A DNA stretch of 61,295 bases, from the NCBI GenBank assembly GCA_002483145.1, contig DLHJ01000011.1:1-61295 (forward strand). Reading direction: 5' to 3'. The notes below the pieces were generated by a model, which saw only the letters and a program-made list of their open reading frames with translations, did no database searches and was not told the DNA's origin. This document shows positions 16,084 through 59,401 of this stretch, one piece after another. Source of the DNA: Cellvibrio sp. UBA7671 (GTDB lineage Bacteria; Pseudomonadota; Gammaproteobacteria; Pseudomonadales; Cellvibrionaceae). Position numbers and translations under genes: made by a program. The number at the start of each line of letters is the position of its first letter. Positions within the stretch are counted from its first letter, which is position 1.

Positions 16084-17985
<1,902 letters not shown>

Positions 17986-18060
17986 TGTGAATTATAGGTA
18001 AAGTTTATAAATTTATAGGATAAGGTTATAAATTTATAGGATAAAATTATAAAGTAGAGT
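17986..18060. repeat. right end of Tn7-like transposon with 21-bp phased TnsB sites
   Basis: The element begins TGTGAATTATAGG directly after the parE stop codon. The 19-mer TTATAAATTTATAGGATAA occurs exactly at 18005-18023 and 18026-18044. Partial copies line up in the same register at 17984-18002 (sharing TTATAGG) and from 18047 (TTATAAA). The four copies are thus spaced by exactly 21 bp, two helical turns. Tn7 ends start with TGT, and its right end has overlapping TnsB sites with about this spacing. The five bases 17981-17985 (TCTAA), which include the parE stop, would be the left copy of a 5-bp target duplication. The matching left end was not found in the window. Confidence 0.85.
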
Positions 18061-18086: not shown

Positions 18087-18728
18087 ATGCTCGAAATGAA
18101 TATTCCCGCCCGCAAGCTCAAAATGTCAGCCGTCAAGAATATTGTTCGCTTCCCAGCGATCAAAGCAAATGGCGGTAAAACCATCCTAGTGGAATCGATC
18201 TTAGAGTCTAAGTATTGTCTTCACCTCGAATTTGATTCTACGGTCGAAACCTATATCCCCCAGCCTAGGACTTTCGCTATCCCTAGTGAAAGTGAGGAAA
18301 ATAGGTATACCCCGGACTTTGAAGTTCATTACATTTGTGGTCAGCGGAAATATGTAGAAGTTAAACCGTCTCATCGCGCAAGTTCAGAGCATTATCAACT
18401 CCTCTTCTCCCGTTTCGAATTGTCACTCGAAAAAACTCTTACGAAGTTCCTACTTGTAAATGAGACGGAAATTCTTAGGCAGCCACTCTTATCCAATTAC
18501 GAAAAACTGTATCAGTACAGGAAACGTCCCACGATCGATATGAGGAACTTGCATCAGTTCGCCGAAATCCACCGTGTTTCGATGCCATTGTCCCGTTTGA
18601 TAAGTGAGTTAGAAAATCAAATTAGCCTTCGAGAAATTTATACTTGGCTGGCCCTAGGGTACTTACGGTTCGACATAAATTCAGAAGAATTAAGCATGAT
18701 GACGGAGGTGGAATTCGATGTCTGTTGA
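18087..18728 (+). CDS. tnsA: Tn7-like transposase subunit A (endonuclease)
   Basis: TnsA cuts the 5' ends of the transposon, which together with TnsB gives cut-and-paste movement. The 213-aa protein has the restriction-enzyme-like nuclease core: E40 in ILESKYCLHLEFD, then QP, D77 in RYTPDFEV, and E91-V-K93 in KYVEVKP. The N-terminal catalytic and C-terminal helical (TnsC-contacting) regions are both present, though it is shorter than Tn7 TnsA (273 aa). TTAGGA precedes the ATG closely. The end overlaps tnsB by 11 bases, implying coupled translation. With active-site residues intact, simple insertion rather than cointegrate formation is expected. Confidence 0.9.
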   Translation: MLEMNIPARKLKMSAVKNIVRFPAIKANGGKTILVESILESKYCLHLEFDSTVETYIPQPRTFAIPSESEENRYTPDFEVHYICGQRKYVEVKPSHRASSEHYQLLFSRFELSLEKTLTKFLLVNETEILRQPLLSNYEKLYQYRKRPTIDMRNLHQFAEIHRVSMPLSRLISELENQISLREIYTWLALGYLRFDINSEELSMMTEVEFDVC

Positions 18729-20631
18729 GTTATGGGTCGAAGGTGTTATCGCCGAATTTAAAGATGGAACCCCTTTCAGTAGGGCGATTGTGCGTGCAAT
18801 CGGTAAAAGTGAAATCGTATTAGCTGATATAGTCAAAGGTTCAACTCTTCGACTAAGTAGATCAGAGCTTAATGAAATCCATGCGGCTGGGGACGTTAAA
18901 TTTCTAGCAGACTCAAGACATTTAGGTGACTTGAAATTTTCAGATCTCACCGAAAAAGAACAGCTCGAAACAAATCGAAGGTTTAAATATATACAAAAAT
19001 TGCAAGAACAGAAAATTAATAAAATTACGGAAAAGCGTGCTTGCAAAACTATTTCGGCTGTTGCGCAGGAGCTAGGTGAAAAACCACCTCATTGGCAAAC
19101 CGTCAGATCGTGGTACAGAAGCTTTGTCGAGGCTGGGATGAAAATGCGAGGGCTTTATCCTAACCATCGATCAAAAGGTTTTTTCGAACCTAAAGTGAGT
19201 GCAAAGGTATTGGAGATCATCAATGAAGCTGCTAAACGTTTTCATCATCAAAGCAGACCGACAATGGCATCCATCCACCGAAACGTTGTAGAGAAGGTAA
19301 TTGCTCACAATTTGGATAACCCACATGACCTTCAAATTGCCCCCACTTACTGCACCGTACAGTCACGAATTCTCAATGTGTCCTACCAACATAAAACAAA
19401 GTCCAGACGCGGGAGCCGTGCACTCCAGGCCGAACTTGCTGGCGCACATAGCGGAATTGAAACAAGTCGAGTGTTAGAACGGGTCGAAATAGACCATACC
19501 TTACTAGATATTCATGTACTTCATGATGAACTCAAGACGCTCTTAGGCCGCCCAAGTATTACGGTTCTGATCGATCATTACTCTCACATGGTCCTTGGTT
19601 GCCAGCTCTCTTTTGAAAAGCCGTCATTTGCATCCGTATGTATGGCTTGCATGAATGCGTTCCTACCAAAAGATTCGATGATGAAAAATCTGGCGATTGA
19701 GGCTGACTGGCTGGCTCATGGAATCCCTACAACGTTGGTTTCAGACAACGCGATGGAGTTTTGGGGTAAAAATTTCAGAGCGGTTGCGGACGAAATTGGA
19801 TCAGTATTTCAATACTGTCCAGTCCGAAAAGGTAATTATAAAAGCCGGGTTGAGCGATTCAATGGGATAGTGAATTCCCTGGTATTGGATGATTTGCCGG
19901 GTGTGGTCCGCAAGCACGATAAATGTGGCGAAGAGTATGATGCACGGCAAGAGGCTACTCTTACTTTTTCTGAGTTTAAACGCTACTTCTTCACTTGGCT
20001 AACGACTGTCTACCATAACACCCCATTGGAATGTGGAATGACGCCTAACGAATTGTGGCTGTCGTCTGAAGAAAGCTTCCCGGTTCCCGTAGAGGACGAG
20101 ATGGATCTCGCACCAATTCTTATGGCCACAGACTCGCGGGAACTGGGCAAAGGCGGGATACGAATTAATAATCTGGATTACAATTCAGATTTGCTGAAAG
20201 ATTTATATAGACGGGACGGTCCTGCCACTATAACTGTTAAGTCGAATTATTTCGATCTTGGGTACATTCTGGTTCTCGATGAGGTCAATAAAGTTTATTT
20301 GAAAATTGAATCTGACGAGTACGAGTACGTTTCAGGCGTCTCTCTATATGAACATAACAAGATCAGAGCCGCTGCAAAGTCCACCGCTAAATCAAAAATG
20401 GAAAGGCCTGACTATCAGCGCGCCAGAGTTAAGCTGGCACGCGAGCGTGACGAGTTACACGCGCGCAATTCCCGCAGGAAAACGCAAGTTACAGCATCTA
20501 AAGCTGCTAGATCACAAAAGGTAGGAGTTAACGATCTTAAGTTAGTCGTCGATAACTCCAGACGAGTTGCAAAAGTGAGTGTCGACTTGTTGGACGATGA
20601 ACTTAGCTTTGACGGGTGGAGCGTAGAATAA
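18718..20631 (+). CDS. tnsB: Tn7-like transposase subunit B (DDE transposase)
   Basis: TnsB binds the transposon ends, cuts the 3' strands and joins them to target DNA. The 637-aa protein has N-terminal DNA-binding helices (HTH-like about residues 105-140), and an rve integrase core with D259 (VEIDHT), D343 (VSDNAMEFWG) and E379 (KSRVERFNG), a DD35E spacing. The Mu-transposase-type beta-barrel follows, then a basic C-terminal tail that should contact TnsC. GGAGG precedes the start. Its stop overlaps the tnsC ATG (TAATG). The presumed binding sites are the repeats at 17986-18060. Confidence 0.95.
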   Translation: MSVELWVEGVIAEFKDGTPFSRAIVRAIGKSEIVLADIVKGSTLRLSRSELNEIHAAGDVKFLADSRHLGDLKFSDLTEKEQLETNRRFKYIQKLQEQKINKITEKRACKTISAVAQELGEKPPHWQTVRSWYRSFVEAGMKMRGLYPNHRSKGFFEPKVSAKVLEIINEAAKRFHHQSRPTMASIHRNVVEKVIAHNLDNPHDLQIAPTYCTVQSRILNVSYQHKTKSRRGSRALQAELAGAHSGIETSRVLERVEIDHTLLDIHVLHDELKTLLGRPSITVLIDHYSHMVLGCQLSFEKPSFASVCMACMNAFLPKDSMMKNLAIEADWLAHGIPTTLVSDNAMEFWGKNFRAVADEIGSVFQYCPVRKGNYKSRVERFNGIVNSLVLDDLPGVVRKHDKCGEEYDARQEATLTFSEFKRYFFTWLTTVYHNTPLECGMTPNELWLSSEESFPVPVEDEMDLAPILMATDSRELGKGGIRINNLDYNSDLLKDLYRRDGPATITVKSNYFDLGYILVLDEVNKVYLKIESDEYEYVSGVSLYEHNKIRAAAKSTAKSKMERPDYQRARVKLARERDELHARNSRRKTQVTASKAARSQKVGVNDLKLVVDNSRRVAKVSVDLLDDELSFDGWSVE

Positions 20632-21626
20632 TGAACAGTCCCCCGAGTGAACGCCCCTTTATCAAGAGTCCATTTCACACGGAAGTGCTTGACTTATTCG
20701 ATACCCTTAGGCTCAAAAAAAAACGTTACGGAGTTGCGTCATGCTTACTGTTAACCGGCGAGTCCGGCAGCGGCAAGAGCGAACTGGCAAAGCACTATGT
20801 GAAAATGAATCCTATCATTGAGCAGTTGGAAAGAACTTATATACCTGTTTTACATTTCGAGTTGAGATCAGTATCTAATGTAGAGGAATTTTTAAAATCC
20901 CTTTTGATAGGTCTGGGTGATCCTCAGATGGGGCGTGGTGCGAAAAATAAAGTTGAGCTCTACGATCGGTTGATTAACTTGATTCGGACCACGTGTGTAG
21001 AACTGTTCATTCTCGATGAGATTCAAGTAATCATTGAGCGTCGTAGCGCACAAGTAGTAGTAGGAATAGCCGATTTGTTCAAAGATCTTATTAAAGACAC
21101 GGAAATTCCTATAGTTTTCATGGGTATGCCATGGAGCAAATACCTTGTTGACTCTAATCGTCAGTTGAAGCGCCGCATAGCGTATCGACGCGTATTCCCG
21201 CCTTACCGAGTAAGCAACAAAAAAGACCGGGACGACTATAGAAGGCTATTGAAGCTGTTGGCTAATGCTTATGGTCTTTCGTCCGACCTTGATATTTCAG
21301 GTACCGCAATGGCATTGAGATGCTTCGCCGCGACCAATGGAAATCTGTCTCTCACGGCAGAGCTCATAAGCGAGGCATTTATGATGTCAGAGATGGAGGA
21401 CAGAAAGGTTGACATCGAATTATTTGCAAATGTCCTCCGCAGCTATGGAGTCGACGATGAATTTAATTCATTTTTAGTAAGTATTGATAAGCTTGTTCTA
21501 AATGAGCTGGTGGTTAATTCTGATTGGCACTTCGGGTATCGCGCAAATAAAAACGCAATTATTGATGCACAATTTGTGACTTACGGTGTATCAAAGGAAA
21601 ATAAAGTATTTTGTCTGACAGGCTGA
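20631..21626 (+). CDS. tnsC: Tn7-like transposition regulator C (AAA+ ATPase)
   Basis: TnsC is the ATP-dependent filament protein that links the target selector (TnsD/TniQ) to the TnsAB transposase. The 331-aa AAA+ protein has Walker A GESGSGKS (residues 43-50), Walker B LFILDE (125-130) and a sensor segment IPIVFMGMP (159-167). The ATG overlaps the tnsB stop as TAATG; a GTG 15 bases upstream in frame is possible but less likely. It is much shorter than Tn7 TnsC (555 aa) and nearer in size to TniB or the short TnsC of other Tn7-like families, so the extra TnsD- and TnsA-binding extensions of Tn7 are missing. Confidence 0.93.
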   Translation: MNSPPSERPFIKSPFHTEVLDLFDTLRLKKKRYGVASCLLLTGESGSGKSELAKHYVKMNPIIEQLERTYIPVLHFELRSVSNVEEFLKSLLIGLGDPQMGRGAKNKVELYDRLINLIRTTCVELFILDEIQVIIERRSAQVVVGIADLFKDLIKDTEIPIVFMGMPWSKYLVDSNRQLKRRIAYRRVFPPYRVSNKKDRDDYRRLLKLLANAYGLSSDLDISGTAMALRCFAATNGNLSLTAELISEAFMMSEMEDRKVDIELFANVLRSYGVDDEFNSFLVSIDKLVLNELVVNSDWHFGYRANKNAIIDAQFVTYGVSKENKVFCLTG

Positions 21627-21702: not shown

Positions 21703-22980
21703 ATGTTCGTGAGACCCGAACCTATTTTTATTATTAGAGTTTTACAGATGCAGAACTTTGGTGAGAAGTTAGATCTGCTCGAAATCGATCAGGGTGTGCA
21801 GGTGAAGCTACTATACAGAGCGGATAAATTTCCGGATGAGTGCTTTCCCGATTACCTTGCGCGATTATCCTGTTGGAACGGCTTTAAAGACAGCGCGGAT
21901 TTCATGCGCTTCTTATCAAAAATATACAACAATCTGCATCCCGATGATTGCCAGGAAAAAAATCCGGATCCAGACAGCAAAGAGTTCGAAGCTAGATATC
22001 CATTCTATATTCGTTGGTATAAATGTAGAATCGCTTTGGAGTTCATAATACGACGATCCCTTGTTTATTCAGAGTTGAATCTGGATGCTTACAGAGTCAG
22101 TCAGCCTAACAAAGTATGCGTGGGTTGTTGGGGTGAAAATCCATATAGAAAATTTTATTGGCGATATCAAGAGTATAAAATCTGCCACAAGCATAATGTA
22201 AGACTTGTAGTTGTCGACAATATTCTCTACAACAGTCCAACGTTGACAGGTACGACGGAATATGTCGCTACATTGGACCGAAGATCCATAAGCTGTTCAT
22301 ACGTATCTGCAATTCTTAGAAATAATCCTTTAAAAACATTTAATTTTGAAAATTTGCAACGTGAAAATTACATTATTGAGCTAGAAATAACTTTGTGGAA
22401 AAGGGTGATTAGATTTCTAAATGAAAGGTTTTCATTCTCGTTTGTTAGTATGGATATATTTGATTTCGTCACTCTTGAATCCATTGCAGGCTTAGCAATT
22501 TCTAATCGTCTAGAGAAAATGACGGAAAAGCTCATTGGATGTAAGACTGAGTTTTCGTTATTCATTAAGACGGCTGTTTTAGTCTGTATTCAAAGATCGT
22601 ACTTGATGTATTATCCTGATGTAAAAAGCTGGGTATTATCAGAAGCCTATTTTATTAATCCTGTTTTTTACTCATATCTTTACGGAATTAACCAACATTT
22701 TTTTATAAAAGATGAGCTTACTTTTGCAGATGAAATTTCTCAAAAGAATGCGTTTCGAAGGGTGAATCTTAGCAGGGTGTCAGACAGGATCCTCTGCAAA
22801 TTTATTCTAGAGTCGAGAATTTTGTCCGATTCTCAATTGGAATCAATATCGCGAAATGGACGGATTGTAATTGGAACTACAGAGCTACCGGGGCATATCG
22901 ATCAGCAACGAGTTGACTACGAAAAATTTATTGAAATGACGGGTGATTGCCTTTTTGATAGACAGCCGATCAATAGATGA
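21703..22980 (+). CDS. tniQ: TniQ-domain target-selection protein, first copy
   Basis: A 425-aa TniQ-family protein. Near the N-terminus is the TniQ signature region with FPDYLARLSCWNGF. The zinc-binding set is C139, C142, C161 and H164 (KVCVGCW then KICHKHNVRLV). Such proteins recruit TnsC to a target. The second half is not recognised, lacks clear HTH repeats and is very AT-rich. The start is uncertain: the ATG at 21703 has no good ribosome site, and an in-frame ATG at 21748 is an alternative. It is followed with no gap by a second tniQ gene. The two are divergent in sequence, not a recent duplication. Confidence 0.85.
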   Translation: MFVRPEPIFIIRVLQMQNFGEKLDLLEIDQGVQVKLLYRADKFPDECFPDYLARLSCWNGFKDSADFMRFLSKIYNNLHPDDCQEKNPDPDSKEFEARYPFYIRWYKCRIALEFIIRRSLVYSELNLDAYRVSQPNKVCVGCWGENPYRKFYWRYQEYKICHKHNVRLVVVDNILYNSPTLTGTTEYVATLDRRSISCSYVSAILRNNPLKTFNFENLQRENYIIELEITLWKRVIRFLNERFSFSFVSMDIFDFVTLESIAGLAISNRLEKMTEKLIGCKTEFSLFIKTAVLVCIQRSYLMYYPDVKSWVLSEAYFINPVFYSYLYGINQHFFIKDELTFADEISQKNAFRRVNLSRVSDRILCKFILESRILSDSQLESISRNGRIVIGTTELPGHIDQQRVDYEKFIEMTGDCLFDRQPINR

Positions 22981-23004
22981 ATGAAGATGATTAGGGAGGG
23001 ACAG

Positions 23005-24477
23005 ATGGGTAAACTTTTATTCAGGCCCGCGCCTTTCTCTGATGAATGTCAGGTTAGTTATCTTATCCGTATTTCTCAACACAATGGTTTTAGCCACATA
23101 GGGAAACTCCTGGATTTCGCTGGGCTTAAGTGGAAAAACGCTAGGGTCCCGGTACATCAGATTTTAACGGGCGAATTTGATTTGTCGTCGCATTTTTTGC
23201 AGTTAGACTTAAAAGTTTCCTTTGCACCAACCGCTGAAGTGTATCGGAGTTTTAGACGCGTGATAGATTCCCCCTATATATTGGTCAAACACCCAAAATT
23301 GTGTCCAGACTGTCTACAGGAACTGGGTTATTGCAAATATTATTGGTCGTTTTTACCGGTTGTCGCTTGTAATAAACACCAGAAATTATTGGTAGATGTG
23401 CAAGAAGATACGGGAAAACGATTGAGTTGGTATCGCCCAAGGCTTGATAGTTTCGATACTAACCATGAGCCTATTCTAGCGCCTCACCAAAAATTCGGCT
23501 CATCTGTTTTTCAATTCAATGCTTACGTTAATAGCCTATTATCGAATACCGTCCATACAGTGGAGATTCCAAAGATAGTTCGAGGTTTAACATTCCGGGA
23601 GTCATTGACGTTGATAAATTTTCTTGCACATTATTCAGCGAGACTGGTAGGGGATAATTTTAATCCCAACAGGATGGAAAATATTGAACTCGCTCAACAT
23701 TACACAGCCATATGGAATTTGTTAAGGAATTGGCCAGATGCATTTTATTCTTTACTTTCTCAATTCATTGATAATCCGATGAGTAAAAGGGGCATCGCTG
23801 GAATCAATAAACATTATAGAGATCTTTACGAGCAGCTACATAGAAGGCGACTCAACCAAGGCATTGCAGTTATCAAGGAAGAATTTGATCGTTACGTGGC
23901 TACGTATTGGCCCGGGGTACTGGATAGTCAGCGCGTCACTAGGATCACGTCGTCAATCGCCTCGCGCAATATCATTTCCAAAAAAAAAGCAGCTGTTGTC
24001 ATCGGCTGCCGACCGGAACGTATTGATAGTTATGTAATTATGAAACGCTTATCAAGGGTAATTTTTAAAGGGAAAGCTCATTACTTGCTTGATGAAGCAG
24101 ATGCGTTGGCCACCGAACTTGGGTCAAACTGGACTATGAACGAGGCGTGCCATGAACTGGAAATTACAAGACATCAGCTCAGGCAATTATTGGATAGCCA
24201 AATACTAACCGCAATTCAAAAGCCAAACCGCCTTAATCGGGACTGGGTAATCGACAAAAATCACTGTGAAAAATTTATTCGCGATTTGAGCCTCAAGGCT
24301 CGCATTGGAGTGCCCAAGAAGCCCATATCTAGAGCTGGAATCCAGCACCAGGGATTCTCTATAGTTCAGCTAGTTACGGCCATGAAGACTGGAAGTGTTA
24401 CCTTCGATTTCTCTCCAAACATCGACCACCGGGTCAGTTTTAAACAATTTTCTAATTTCGAAATTAATATTGTGTAA
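23005..24477 (+). CDS. tnsD: TnsD-like target-site selector (TniQ domain), second copy
   Basis: A 490-aa protein. The N-terminal TniQ domain begins LLFRPAPFSDECQVSYLIRI, a common opening for TnsD-type proteins. Zinc ligands are C100, C103, C122 and H125 (KLCPDC and ACNKH). The C-terminal half has helix-turn-helix-like segments (for example SNWTMNEACHELEITRHQLR) suited to recognising specific DNA, as TnsD does for its attachment site. I infer that this copy recognises the 3' end of parE. An in-frame ATG 24 bases upstream exists, but AGGGAGG lies 7 bases before the ATG at 23005, so that start is preferred. It is the last gene of the tns operon. Confidence 0.85.
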   Translation: MGKLLFRPAPFSDECQVSYLIRISQHNGFSHIGKLLDFAGLKWKNARVPVHQILTGEFDLSSHFLQLDLKVSFAPTAEVYRSFRRVIDSPYILVKHPKLCPDCLQELGYCKYYWSFLPVVACNKHQKLLVDVQEDTGKRLSWYRPRLDSFDTNHEPILAPHQKFGSSVFQFNAYVNSLLSNTVHTVEIPKIVRGLTFRESLTLINFLAHYSARLVGDNFNPNRMENIELAQHYTAIWNLLRNWPDAFYSLLSQFIDNPMSKRGIAGINKHYRDLYEQLHRRRLNQGIAVIKEEFDRYVATYWPGVLDSQRVTRITSSIASRNIISKKKAAVVIGCRPERIDSYVIMKRLSRVIFKGKAHYLLDEADALATELGSNWTMNEACHELEITRHQLRQLLDSQILTAIQKPNRLNRDWVIDKNHCEKFIRDLSLKARIGVPKKPISRAGIQHQGFSIVQLVTAMKTGSVTFDFSPNIDHRVSFKQFSNFEINIV

Positions 24478-29869: not shown

Positions 29870-31999
29870 ATGGACATGAAAATTCCCGACACCCGCACAG
29901 CGGGGATACACATACCAACGGAGCTGAGCAGCGCAACGGATCGCTATCCGGTAGTACCGGACATGTTGCCACCAGACCAGTCACGTCGTCGCTTTGTACT
30001 CGGTGCCTCCTCATTGGTAGCACTGGGTGCGTTACCGTTATCGGGTCAGCTATTTGCCGCTACACCATTGCAAAACAATGACCCCCAGACCTTGGCTGGA
30101 AAACAGTTCGATCTATCGATTGGCTTCCAGAAGGTCAACTTCACCGGCAAACAACGGATCGCCACAACCGTTAACCAAAGCTTGCCCGCTCCCATCTTGC
30201 GCTGGAAAGAAGGTGAACGCGTGACTTTGCGGGTAACCAATACACTCGATCACGACAGCTCCATCCATTGGCACGGCATCATTTTGCCCTCGGAAATGGA
30301 TGGCGTGCCGGGCATGAGCTTTGATGGCATAAAGCCCGGCGAGACCTTTATCTACGAGTTTGATGTACAGCAAAGCGGCACTTATTGGTATCACAGCCAT
30401 TCTGGATTCCAGGAGCAAACCGGCCTAATGGGCGCCATCGTCATTGAGCCGAAAGAGCCCGATCCTGTGACTTATGACCGGGATATGGTCGTGCTGCTGT
30501 CTGACTGGACGGACACTGCACCGGAAAAGGTCTATGGCACCCTGAAAAAGATGAGCCACTACTACAACTTCCGAGAGCGGACGGTTGGCGATCTGGTGCG
30601 TGACCTCAAAACCAAAGGGTTCGCAGCTACCTGGAACGAGCGCGCCATGTGGGGCCAGATGCGCATGAGCGAAACTGATATATCGGACGTGACCGGTTAT
30701 ACCTACACCTACTTGATGAACGGCGTTACACCGGATCAAGGCTGGTTGGGACTCTGCAAACCCGGCGAGAAAGTACGCCTGCGCTTTATCAACGGCGCGG
30801 CGATGAGCATTTTCGATGTGCGGATTCCGGGATTAAAAATGACGGTAGTCGCTGCTGACGGCCAGAATATCCAGCCGGTCGTGGTCGATGAATTTCGTAT
30901 CGGGGTAGCGGAAACCTACGATGTCATCGTGGAACCCGCTGCTGATAGCGCCTACACCATCTTTGCCCAAAGTAATGACCGTACCGGTTATGCCCGTGGC
31001 ACCCTGACCACGGATATTGCCTTGCGGGCCGAGATACCGGCGATGGACCCGGCTCCCAGGTTAGGTCATCGCGACATGGGGATGGATATGTCTGGTATGG
31101 ATCACAGTGGACACGACATGGGCGGTATGGCTCACTCCGGCCATAACATGGGAGCGATGGATCACAGCGGCCACGATATGTCGGCCATGAAGATGGATCA
31201 CAGCCAGCATTCGAAGCCCGCCATGGAAGGTATGGATCACTCCGGTCATGACATGGGCGCGATGGACCATAGCGGGCACGATATGTCAGCCATGAAGATG
31301 GACCATAGCCAGCACTCCAAGCCCGCAATGGAAGGTATGGATCACTCCGGCCATGACATGGGCGCGATGGATCACAGCGGGCACGATATGTCGAAGATGG
31401 ATCACAGCCAGCACACCGGCAAATCGCGTCTGGCCAAAGCTGGTTTTGGCAGCAATTTTGATCCGCTCACCAAGATAAGCCATGTTGATACGGAATTTGG
31501 CCCACACGTGGATATGCGTTCAGACGCACCTCAAAGCGGCTTGGCCGATCCGGGGATTGGACTGCGTGATCACCAAAAACTGTACGGTCGCCGTGTATTG
31601 ACCTACGCGGACATCCGGGGCCTGCATCCCACCTACGACAAACGTGAGCCCTCACGGGAAATTGAGCTGCACCTGACCGGCAACATGCGCCGTTATATGT
31701 GGTCGATCAACGGCCTCAATTTTGCCGATGCCAAGCCGCTGGAACTGAGCTTTGGCGAGCGCGTGCGCATCATTCTGGTCAATGACACCATGATGACGCA
31801 TCCCATTCATTTGCACGGAATGTGGAGCGAATTGGAAACCGGTGATCCCCACTATATCCCACGTAAACACACCATCCTTGTCCAACCCGGTTCGCGCATC
31901 AGTTACCTCGTAACTGCCGATGCCAAGGGCCGTTGGGCATATCACTGTCATTTGCTTTACCACATGCCCGGCATGATGCGTGAAGTCAGGGTCGTTTAG
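29870..31999 (+). CDS. copA: multicopper oxidase, copper resistance (CopA/PcoA family)
   Basis: A periplasmic laccase-like enzyme that oxidises Cu(I) and sequesters copper. The 709-aa protein is a Tat substrate (SRRRFVLG, residues 38-45, then a hydrophobic stretch). Cupredoxin domain 1 contains IHWHG and YWYHSHSG. The last domain has HPIHLHGMW and YHCHLLYHMPGMM, completing type 1, 2 and 3 copper sites. Between them (about residues 405-520) is an expanded Met/His region built from MDHSGHDM units, encoded by a 105-bp tandem repeat. AAGGAG precedes the start; a second ATG two codons later is equally possible. copB follows after 9 bases. This is not the P-type ATPase also called CopA. Confidence 0.96.
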   Translation: MDMKIPDTRTAGIHIPTELSSATDRYPVVPDMLPPDQSRRRFVLGASSLVALGALPLSGQLFAATPLQNNDPQTLAGKQFDLSIGFQKVNFTGKQRIATTVNQSLPAPILRWKEGERVTLRVTNTLDHDSSIHWHGIILPSEMDGVPGMSFDGIKPGETFIYEFDVQQSGTYWYHSHSGFQEQTGLMGAIVIEPKEPDPVTYDRDMVVLLSDWTDTAPEKVYGTLKKMSHYYNFRERTVGDLVRDLKTKGFAATWNERAMWGQMRMSETDISDVTGYTYTYLMNGVTPDQGWLGLCKPGEKVRLRFINGAAMSIFDVRIPGLKMTVVAADGQNIQPVVVDEFRIGVAETYDVIVEPAADSAYTIFAQSNDRTGYARGTLTTDIALRAEIPAMDPAPRLGHRDMGMDMSGMDHSGHDMGGMAHSGHNMGAMDHSGHDMSAMKMDHSQHSKPAMEGMDHSGHDMGAMDHSGHDMSAMKMDHSQHSKPAMEGMDHSGHDMGAMDHSGHDMSKMDHSQHTGKSRLAKAGFGSNFDPLTKISHVDTEFGPHVDMRSDAPQSGLADPGIGLRDHQKLYGRRVLTYADIRGLHPTYDKREPSREIELHLTGNMRRYMWSINGLNFADAKPLELSFGERVRIILVNDTMMTHPIHLHGMWSELETGDPHYIPRKHTILVQPGSRISYLVTADAKGRWAYHCHLLYHMPGMMREVRVV
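31157..31419 (+). repeat. 105-bp in-frame tandem repeat inside copA
   Basis: Two full copies (31157-31261, 31262-31366) and a shortened third (from 31367) of a 105-bp, 35-codon unit. Each encodes MDHSGHDMSAMKMDHSQHS followed by KPAMEGMDHSGHDMGA. The copies differ at a few mostly third-position bases, so the array is not brand new. It expands the Met/His copper-binding segment. Confidence 0.9.
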
Positions 32000-59086: not shown

Positions 59087-59401
59087 ATGAAACTGATCAC
59101 TGCGCTTTTACATCATGTGCGGGTAACCGCTGTTATCGATGCATTGAACGATGCGGGTTATCGCAACCTCAACTTACAGGATGTAAAAGGTACGCTCAAA
59201 CCCTTGGGCGATTTTGAATTGACCTATTCGTCGGAGGCCCGGCTGGTTATTTCCGAGGTGCAATTGTCACTCCCCTGTGAGGACAGCGATGTGGAATCCA
59301 TCACCCGGATTATTCGCGAGGCTGGCCGCATTGGTAACGATGTTTGTGGATGGGTTTATGTGAGTGCTATTGAACAGGCATTACCCATCGGCGGCTCGTA
59401 A
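59087..59401 (+). CDS. PII-like signalling protein linked to czc
   Basis: A 104-aa protein with a ferredoxin-like PII/CutA fold: KLITALLHHVRVTAVIDALNDAGYRNLNLQDVKG as first beta-alpha-beta, and the second half VESITRIIREAGRIGNDVCGWVYVSAIEQAL with the typical IxxAxxTGxxGDGxxxV-like arrangement. It lacks the T-loop tyrosine of classical GlnB/GlnK. PII-like proteins sit at the end of several CusA/CzcA operons and probably sense metal or an adenylyl nucleotide to tune the pump. AGGAGA precedes the ATG. Confidence 0.85.
   Translation: MKLITALLHHVRVTAVIDALNDAGYRNLNLQDVKGTLKPLGDFELTYSSEARLVISEVQLSLPCEDSDVESITRIIREAGRIGNDVCGWVYVSAIEQALPIGGS

Follow-up and report, generated by a model that had tools for sequence, protein, structure and literature searches.

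In Tn7, TnsD reads the coding sequence of glmS, and the element inserts at a set distance from the 3' coding sequence, with its tnsA-side end towards the target and with a 5-bp duplication. The target gene lies outside the right end of Tn7, and closely spaced sites at one end are combined with spaced sites at the other (PMC11406308). The parE landing site is already known for type I-F3 CASTs, some of which have a parE-targeting TnsD, Tn7017 (EasCAST) being named among them (PMC11406308, Annual Review 2024); parE is also listed as a homing site in PMC10201428 and PMC12719977, and it does not occur in the main text of PMC10293859. Elements of the Tn7017 kind are Tn7-like and have two TniQ-family proteins, one of which directs insertion next to parE (PMC11406308), whereas Tn6677 (VchCAST) is a type I-F3a CAST (PMC11406308). 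In the Tn6022 group, TniQ works with another selector, TnsF (PMC10293859).

The DNA analysed here (the window) is an entire contig, C8, of 61,295 bp, in which a Tn7-like element stands directly behind parE. The first-pass annotation had proposed a Tn7-type right end whose target is the 3' end of parE rather than that of glmS, and this reading is supported by the end itself and by the tnsABC and TniQ genes behind parE; its question whether parE is a described site is answered by the CASTs above. The window element shares with Tn7017 and the other parE-homing I-F3 CASTs the Tn7-like build, the two TniQ-family proteins and insertion at parE with a TniQ/TnsD homologue; this likeness was judged on a parE-adjacent CAST of genome G351 (see below), and for Tn7017 by its description. 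It differs from them in the Cas8-Cas5, Cas7 and Cas6 genes and CRISPR array, since Csy3 was not found in the window's genome and no CRISPR-like array was found in positions 24000-61295 with the settings used; the unseen middle of the element is covered by the genome search for Csy3 alone. The small TniQ of the window also groups apart from the CAST TniQ rows tested. With Tn7 the element has in common the position of the target gene outside the right end, the arrangement of closely spaced and spaced sites, the 5-bp duplication, the tnsA-side end turned to the target and a set distance from a 3' coding sequence; it differs in its target, attTn7 lying behind glmS, and in its second TniQ protein. 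The pairing of TniQ with TnsF in Tn6022 provides a precedent for this second protein (TniQ1), although Tn6022 inserts in the comM gene itself and the window element behind parE. Because parE is already described as a CAST site, the element adds a CRISPR-less, dual-TniQ branch to a known kind. CRISPR-less parE elements were not described in the literature searched, from which Klompe 2022 and Petassi 2020 were absent.

The target gene parE (topoisomerase IV subunit B; 16096-17985, plus strand; Pfam DNA_gyraseB, Toprim and HATPase_c) encodes a protein of 629 aa, which is matched over its full length in congeners, and it retains its own stop codon. Its TAA occupies positions 17983-17985, and TGTGAATTATAGG begins at the next base, 17986, exactly as the first-pass annotation had it. 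The right end (17986-18060, plus strand) is composed of a TGT terminus and three abutting 21-bp presumed TnsB sites starting at 17992, 18013 and 18034, and a repeat analysis of this end returned three 21-nt copies at steps of 21 and 21. The phased repeats had been described as two perfect and two partial 19-mers, and the positions agree: perfect copies of TTATAAATTTATAGGATAA occupy 18005-18023 and 18026-18044, and partial ones were seen by eye one step of 21 bp to either side. Across the 5.04-Mb assembly, the exact 18-mer core has two occurrences, both at the right end behind parE; looser matches to it (2-3 mismatches) are about as frequent as in the control. The five bases before the end, TCTAA (17981-17985, plus strand), had been pointed out as the putative target duplication and are found as stated. 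The end on the tnsA side faces parE, the orientation of Tn7, which also had been recognised at the outset.

The Tn7-like gene set of tnsA, tnsB, tnsC and TniQ/TnsD is present together according to Pfam, all on the plus strand. The transposase endonuclease gene tnsA (18087-18728) matches Tn7_TnsA-like_N; the DDE transposase gene tnsB (18718-20631) matches Mu-transpos_C above and rve below the cut-off; and the AAA+ regulator gene tnsC (20616-21626) matches TniB. Among solved structures, the best relatives of the TnsB and TnsC proteins are Tn6677 TnsB and VchTnsC of Tn6677, which within the Tn7 family points towards the I-F3 CASTs, Tn6677 itself differing as a CAST from an element whose genome yielded no Csy3. 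Two TniQ-family genes follow: tniQ1 (21703-22980; 425 aa), which is fast-evolving and has a TniQ match just under the Pfam cut-off (25.8 vs 27 bits), and tniQ2/tnsD (22981-24477; 498 aa), the proposed parE target selector, which matches Pfam TniQ and belongs to a conserved, parE-linked family (alignment A1). Neither PHROGs nor NCBIfam contained a match to TniQ1, to TniQ2 or to two unnamed minus-strand genes, and a structure prediction for TniQ2 from a 2-row alignment failed, at a mean pLDDT of 32.5.

The element continues past the end of the window. A far terminus was located on contig C9 of the same assembly, where it ends at position 2401 and is followed by the second copy of TCTAA (2402-2406); its inverted 20-mer sites match the consensus at 19/20 and 18/20 positions. 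These are the duplication and the inverted sites that the first-pass annotation had proposed to look for, and a far end with non-matching repeats or duplication, which would have spoken against the reading, was not encountered. The left (far) terminus is TGC, vs TGT at the right end, so the termini fit a TG...CA pattern with the repeated sites inverted at the two ends, while a rule of TGT at both ends would fail. A search for an inverted end with TCTAA, allowing up to three mismatches, returned 11 matches (8+3) vs 10 in the reversed control (4+6), and the C9 match carried three mismatches; at reversed-control level, such a match alone proves nothing, and the case is made by the TCTAA duplication, the inverted sites and the gene order of the empty site taken together. 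An initial candidate on contig C17 (2 mismatches) was rejected, being located inside an ORF and having, by eye, neither TCTAA nor a further site adjoining.

Beyond the far end, C9 contains a terminator-like stretch (by eye) and then an ORF of 788 aa. The same ORF follows parE in 6 of 17 congener loci examined with 1.5-kb flanks (L018, L019, L021, L022, L024 and L029); the 17 include L026, which is G014 and has an element of its own. When joined, the two flanks of the window's element align across the junction with L024 (451 columns, 68.5%). No 21-bp sites were found behind parE in eight congener loci (L018, L021, L022, L023, L025, L027, L033 and L034), so an uninterrupted relative with the same repeats, which would have spoken against the transposon end, was not seen among them. 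In L021 (G016), a congener without an element, a short TTATAAAGGTGTAG repeat with a 14-bp step lies just behind the parE stop. Continuity of the element between C8 and C9 is presumed; with 43,310 bp in the window and 2,401 bp on C9, plus the unseen middle, it would measure at least 45.7 kb.

Of 390 genomes of the order, 20 (that of the window among them) have a relative of TnsB at E <= 1e-40. Ten of 144 genomes of the family have a TniQ2-family gene, as do 7 of 15 from another family in the order; with G063, G082 and G193 this amounts to 20 genomes and 21 chromosomal copies. Partial copies (G319, G158 and G063) and one with a stop (G876) are included in this count. Cellvibrio mixtus J3-8 is a named relative. 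A class-wide search with TniQ2 (E <= 1e-30) had a match in 1 of 369, the genome from which the window comes, and none of 56 pattern matches in a scan of viral contigs was confirmed as a relative. Seventeen of the 21 chromosomal copies share a contig with parE and lie no more than 35 kb downstream of it, and tnsABC operons downstream of parE, another point that the first-pass annotation had suggested checking, are present in several genomes. Three copies are on contigs other than that of parE in draft genomes: in G285 and G266 parE is followed by an element end, and in G158 the contig breaks 4 bases past the stop. A second copy in G062 is located away from parE, which suggests that these elements may have another targeting route. 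Two further TniQ2 copies are on Acinetobacter plasmids and have a 172-aa protein in the TniQ1 slot; the one examined measures 17,464 bp and has an exact 5-bp duplication, CTTTC. This copy adjoins repeated plasmid sequences. Type-1 relatives (see below) in L083, L084 and L171 reside on large Acinetobacter plasmids typed as mobilizable.

Two main layouts were observed. In type 1, as in the window, tniQ1 and tnsD stand behind tnsC; in type 2 (G099, G062 and G820), tnsD occupies the far end and is encoded on the opposite strand. In G798, whose TnsB falls in the type-2 clade, tnsD precedes tnsABC and is likewise encoded on the opposite strand, and in G193 a distance of 26.5 kb separates the tns operon from the parE-side end. 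Type-1 and type-2 TnsB together form one clade of 14 rows (support 100/100). Beside tnsA, the type-2 elements of G099 (L080, 1403-3263), G062 and G820 keep minus-strand genes of 301, 177 and 126-144 aa, which had no family match except a weak helix-turn-helix and were unmatched in G798; they are candidates for a second target selector. The second type-2 copy of G062 (L078, G062:C1, 657-995) cuts into an exonuclease-like ORF.

The parE-side ends of the relatives are arranged similarly to the right end of the window. Both ends, with exact 5-bp duplications and matching sites, were found for five of eight further chromosomal elements: G850 (23,785 bp, AAGCC), G014 (13,630 bp, GTAGT), G099 (28,430 bp, TTTTT), G062 (28,884 bp, GAGTC) and G820 (24,191 bp, TAATC). 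No far end was found in G082, G798 and G193 within 60, 20 and 40 kb searched, respectively. Since this search required ACA before the duplication, a TGC left end like that of the window would escape it, and the TGT seen at both ends of the relatives with two located ends is the terminus that the search itself required. About 28.4 kb behind parE in G099 (L131/L132), the type-2 element is followed by the duplicated TTTTT and then by the end of an apparent type-1 element, which looks like two elements stacked behind one parE. L106 (G876) and L108 (G319) contain element remnants behind parE, in which the end keeps its usual distance and the TniQ2 frame is broken or partial.

Two other explanations of the locus concern its ends. 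The repeats are AT-rich and loose matches to the core occur elsewhere at control level, as would be expected if chance repeats happened to lie beside an unrelated island; this is scarcely credible, because the exact 18-mer is confined to the right end in 5.04 Mb, the same layout recurs at many parE loci, congeners show the empty-site gene order, and the far end and the relatives speak against it. It is also conceivable that each of the ends on C8 and C9 is the outer end of a separate element, the two being stacked behind parE in the manner of the pair in G099, since they are on different contigs. We regard such a stack as quite improbable, given that the two ends share their site sequence (18-19 of 20 positions to one consensus) and TCTAA, although a stack of close relatives could produce the same. 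A single element with ends on C8 and C9 is the reading followed below.

The distance between parE and the element was read by hand; it runs from the D codon of ParE (in DRK), which in the window starts at 17932, to the element end, counted between their first bases. Of 22 loci, 19 genomes were used after removal of the G285 duplicate, of G131, which shows no element, and of G158, which breaks off 4 bases past the stop; G171 and G351 are outside this count, as it was not possible to place their element ends behind parE exactly and with confidence. A separation of 51-55 bp between the D codon and the element end is found in 17 of the 19 genomes, with distances of 51, 52, 53 (three), 54 (nine) and 55 (three), the outliers being G029 with 63 and G856 with 90. 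From the D codon to the end of the stop codon there are 48, 51 or 54 bp, a variation of up to 6 bp, and the gap that follows compensates for it with 5-6 bp, 0-3 bp and 0-1 bp, respectively, the two outliers excepted. Tail length and gap are correlated at -0.91 in the 17 genomes without the outliers; 1 in 100,000 permutations was as tight, a figure that overstates the case because the genomes are not independent. This spacing was seen with both TnsB types and in several genera; together with the tnsA-side end beside parE, it fits the Tn7-like trait of insertion in one orientation at a safe chromosomal site.

As the end keeps its 51-55 bp to the D codon while the stop shifts, the insertion position seems to be read from the coding sequence and not from the stop codon. 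The last parE codons (17890-17985, plus strand), with positions conserved in the 19 target sites, are the presumed TnsD-read sequence, and conserved codons at a fixed distance are what a TnsD-type reader of the 3' coding sequence would give. That the element abuts the stop in the window's host would then be a coincidence of ParE length. A codon ruler of this kind was not described in the literature searched, which did not include Klompe 2022 and Petassi 2020.

TniQ2 is the likely reader of parE. In the other eight rows of A1 it is 47-56% identical to that of the window, whereas TniQ1 is 25-39% identical in relatives, was not found in G226, is in pieces in G082 and has moved behind tnsD in G850. 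Among nine genomes with only remoter TnsB relatives, stronger TniQ2 matches were obtained in G171 (E 4e-80) and G351 (E 2e-31), and in both the match and the tns genes follow parE directly. The TniQ2 match is weak in the remaining seven (best E 1.5e-11), whose tns genes are on non-parE contigs or far from parE. In L168 (16785-18917; G361) and L169 (17306-18958; G378), tnsA is preceded on its own strand, at a distance of 5.5-6.2 kb, by a gyrase/ParE-like ORF with 38-40% identity to ParE; it is possibly another target gene, or there by chance.

A tree of TniQ proteins places together, though at an open fork (80/92), 11 TnsD-type rows, all at parE and including that of the G351 CAST. A second group (97/91) is made up of nine small TniQ rows from CRISPR-less elements, and three TniQ rows of CASTs stand separately from it (100/100). 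G171's small TniQ belongs to neither of these two small-TniQ groups, and long branches leave the deep order unsure. TniQ1 directly follows tnsC, the position of TniQ in the parE-adjacent I-F3 CAST of G351 (G351:C13; L165/L173), whose order is tnsABC-TniQ-Csy2-Csy3-Csy4-TnsD. The TnsD-type protein of this CAST is homologous to that of the window (22% identity, E 3e-20; E 2e-31 against A1). The most likely role of TniQ1 would be that of an adaptor through which a second pathway, one that does not use CRISPR, reaches mobile DNA such as plasmids.

Searches for Csy3 in 21 genomes left 17 without a match, and none was seen in the 19 kb read of G171. The four genomes with matches are G131, which has no element at parE, and G029, G205 and G798, where Csy3 is on a contig other than that of the parE element; for G029 and G798 this separation is not proof, because these are drafts whose far ends were not found.

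Against this background, the division of labour between the two TniQ proteins and their ancestry may be read differently. Both have TniQ similarity and are encoded in one operon, so TniQ1 instead of TniQ2 might read parE. This is very unlikely: TniQ1 has no match in G226, where the element is at parE, and is variable, broken or moved elsewhere, while TniQ2 is matched in the window, G226, G029, G014, G063 (as a shorter ORF), G082 and G850, and the TnsD-type proteins at parE cluster, through the open fork, with that of the G351 CAST. The kinship of TnsB and TnsC with Tn6677 and the gene order of the G351 CAST, which apart from the Cas genes is that of the window, would suit a decayed parE-homing I-F3 CAST that lacks its CRISPR-Cas genes and has TniQ1 as a former Cascade partner. 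We consider such decay unlikely, since TniQ1 and the type-2 small TniQ group apart from the CAST TniQ (that of G171 in neither group), Csy3 is missing in most genomes searched, and type-1 and type-2 TnsB are one clade. Tentatively, and with less than even odds, parE homing by TnsD might be an old trait of the whole branch behind the I-F3 CASTs, with CRISPR-less elements keeping a pre-CRISPR, two-pathway design in which a fast-evolving small TniQ couples TnsABC to a non-CRISPR plasmid selector. Candidate partners for the small TniQ are the 301-, 177- and 138-aa genes of type 2 and the 172-aa plasmid protein.

Taken with TniQ2 as the reader, the element is very probably a Tn7-like cut-and-paste transposon in which TniQ2 reads the 3' coding end of parE and TnsC directs insertion by TnsA/TnsB some 54 bp further on. 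TnsB would bind the 21-bp sites at both ends, as its family suggests, and TniQ2, as a TnsD-type protein, would read the conserved 3' coding sequence and recruit TnsC. TnsC, in its presumed placement, would direct TnsA and TnsB to the insertion point, where a 5-bp duplication would be made. With the insertion point exactly behind the stop in the window's host, ParE is unchanged. TniQ1 would most likely serve the second pathway, to mobile DNA such as plasmids, without CRISPR.

A described CAST site is thus also used by CRISPR-less Tn7-like elements, which form a comparison set for the adoption of CRISPR-Cas by transposons. As their position follows conserved codons and not the stop, they provide a natural-variation test of distance setting by TnsD and TnsC, and they represent a natural protein-guided insertion system behind an essential gene.

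In the window's host, the element carries copper and heavy-metal resistance. The cargo (24896-61295; Pfam), which runs off the contig end, is mainly of this kind and contains a copper oxidase, CopB, P-type ATPases, a cation diffusion facilitator and RND efflux genes in two Cus-type sets and one further set. None of the window's cargo ORFs had a match in 12 other elements (E 1e-8), several of which are partial. Three 105-bp direct repeats lie within a copper-oxidase-like gene (31114-31428), and a small PII-like gene (59087-59401) is located in a metal-efflux cluster.
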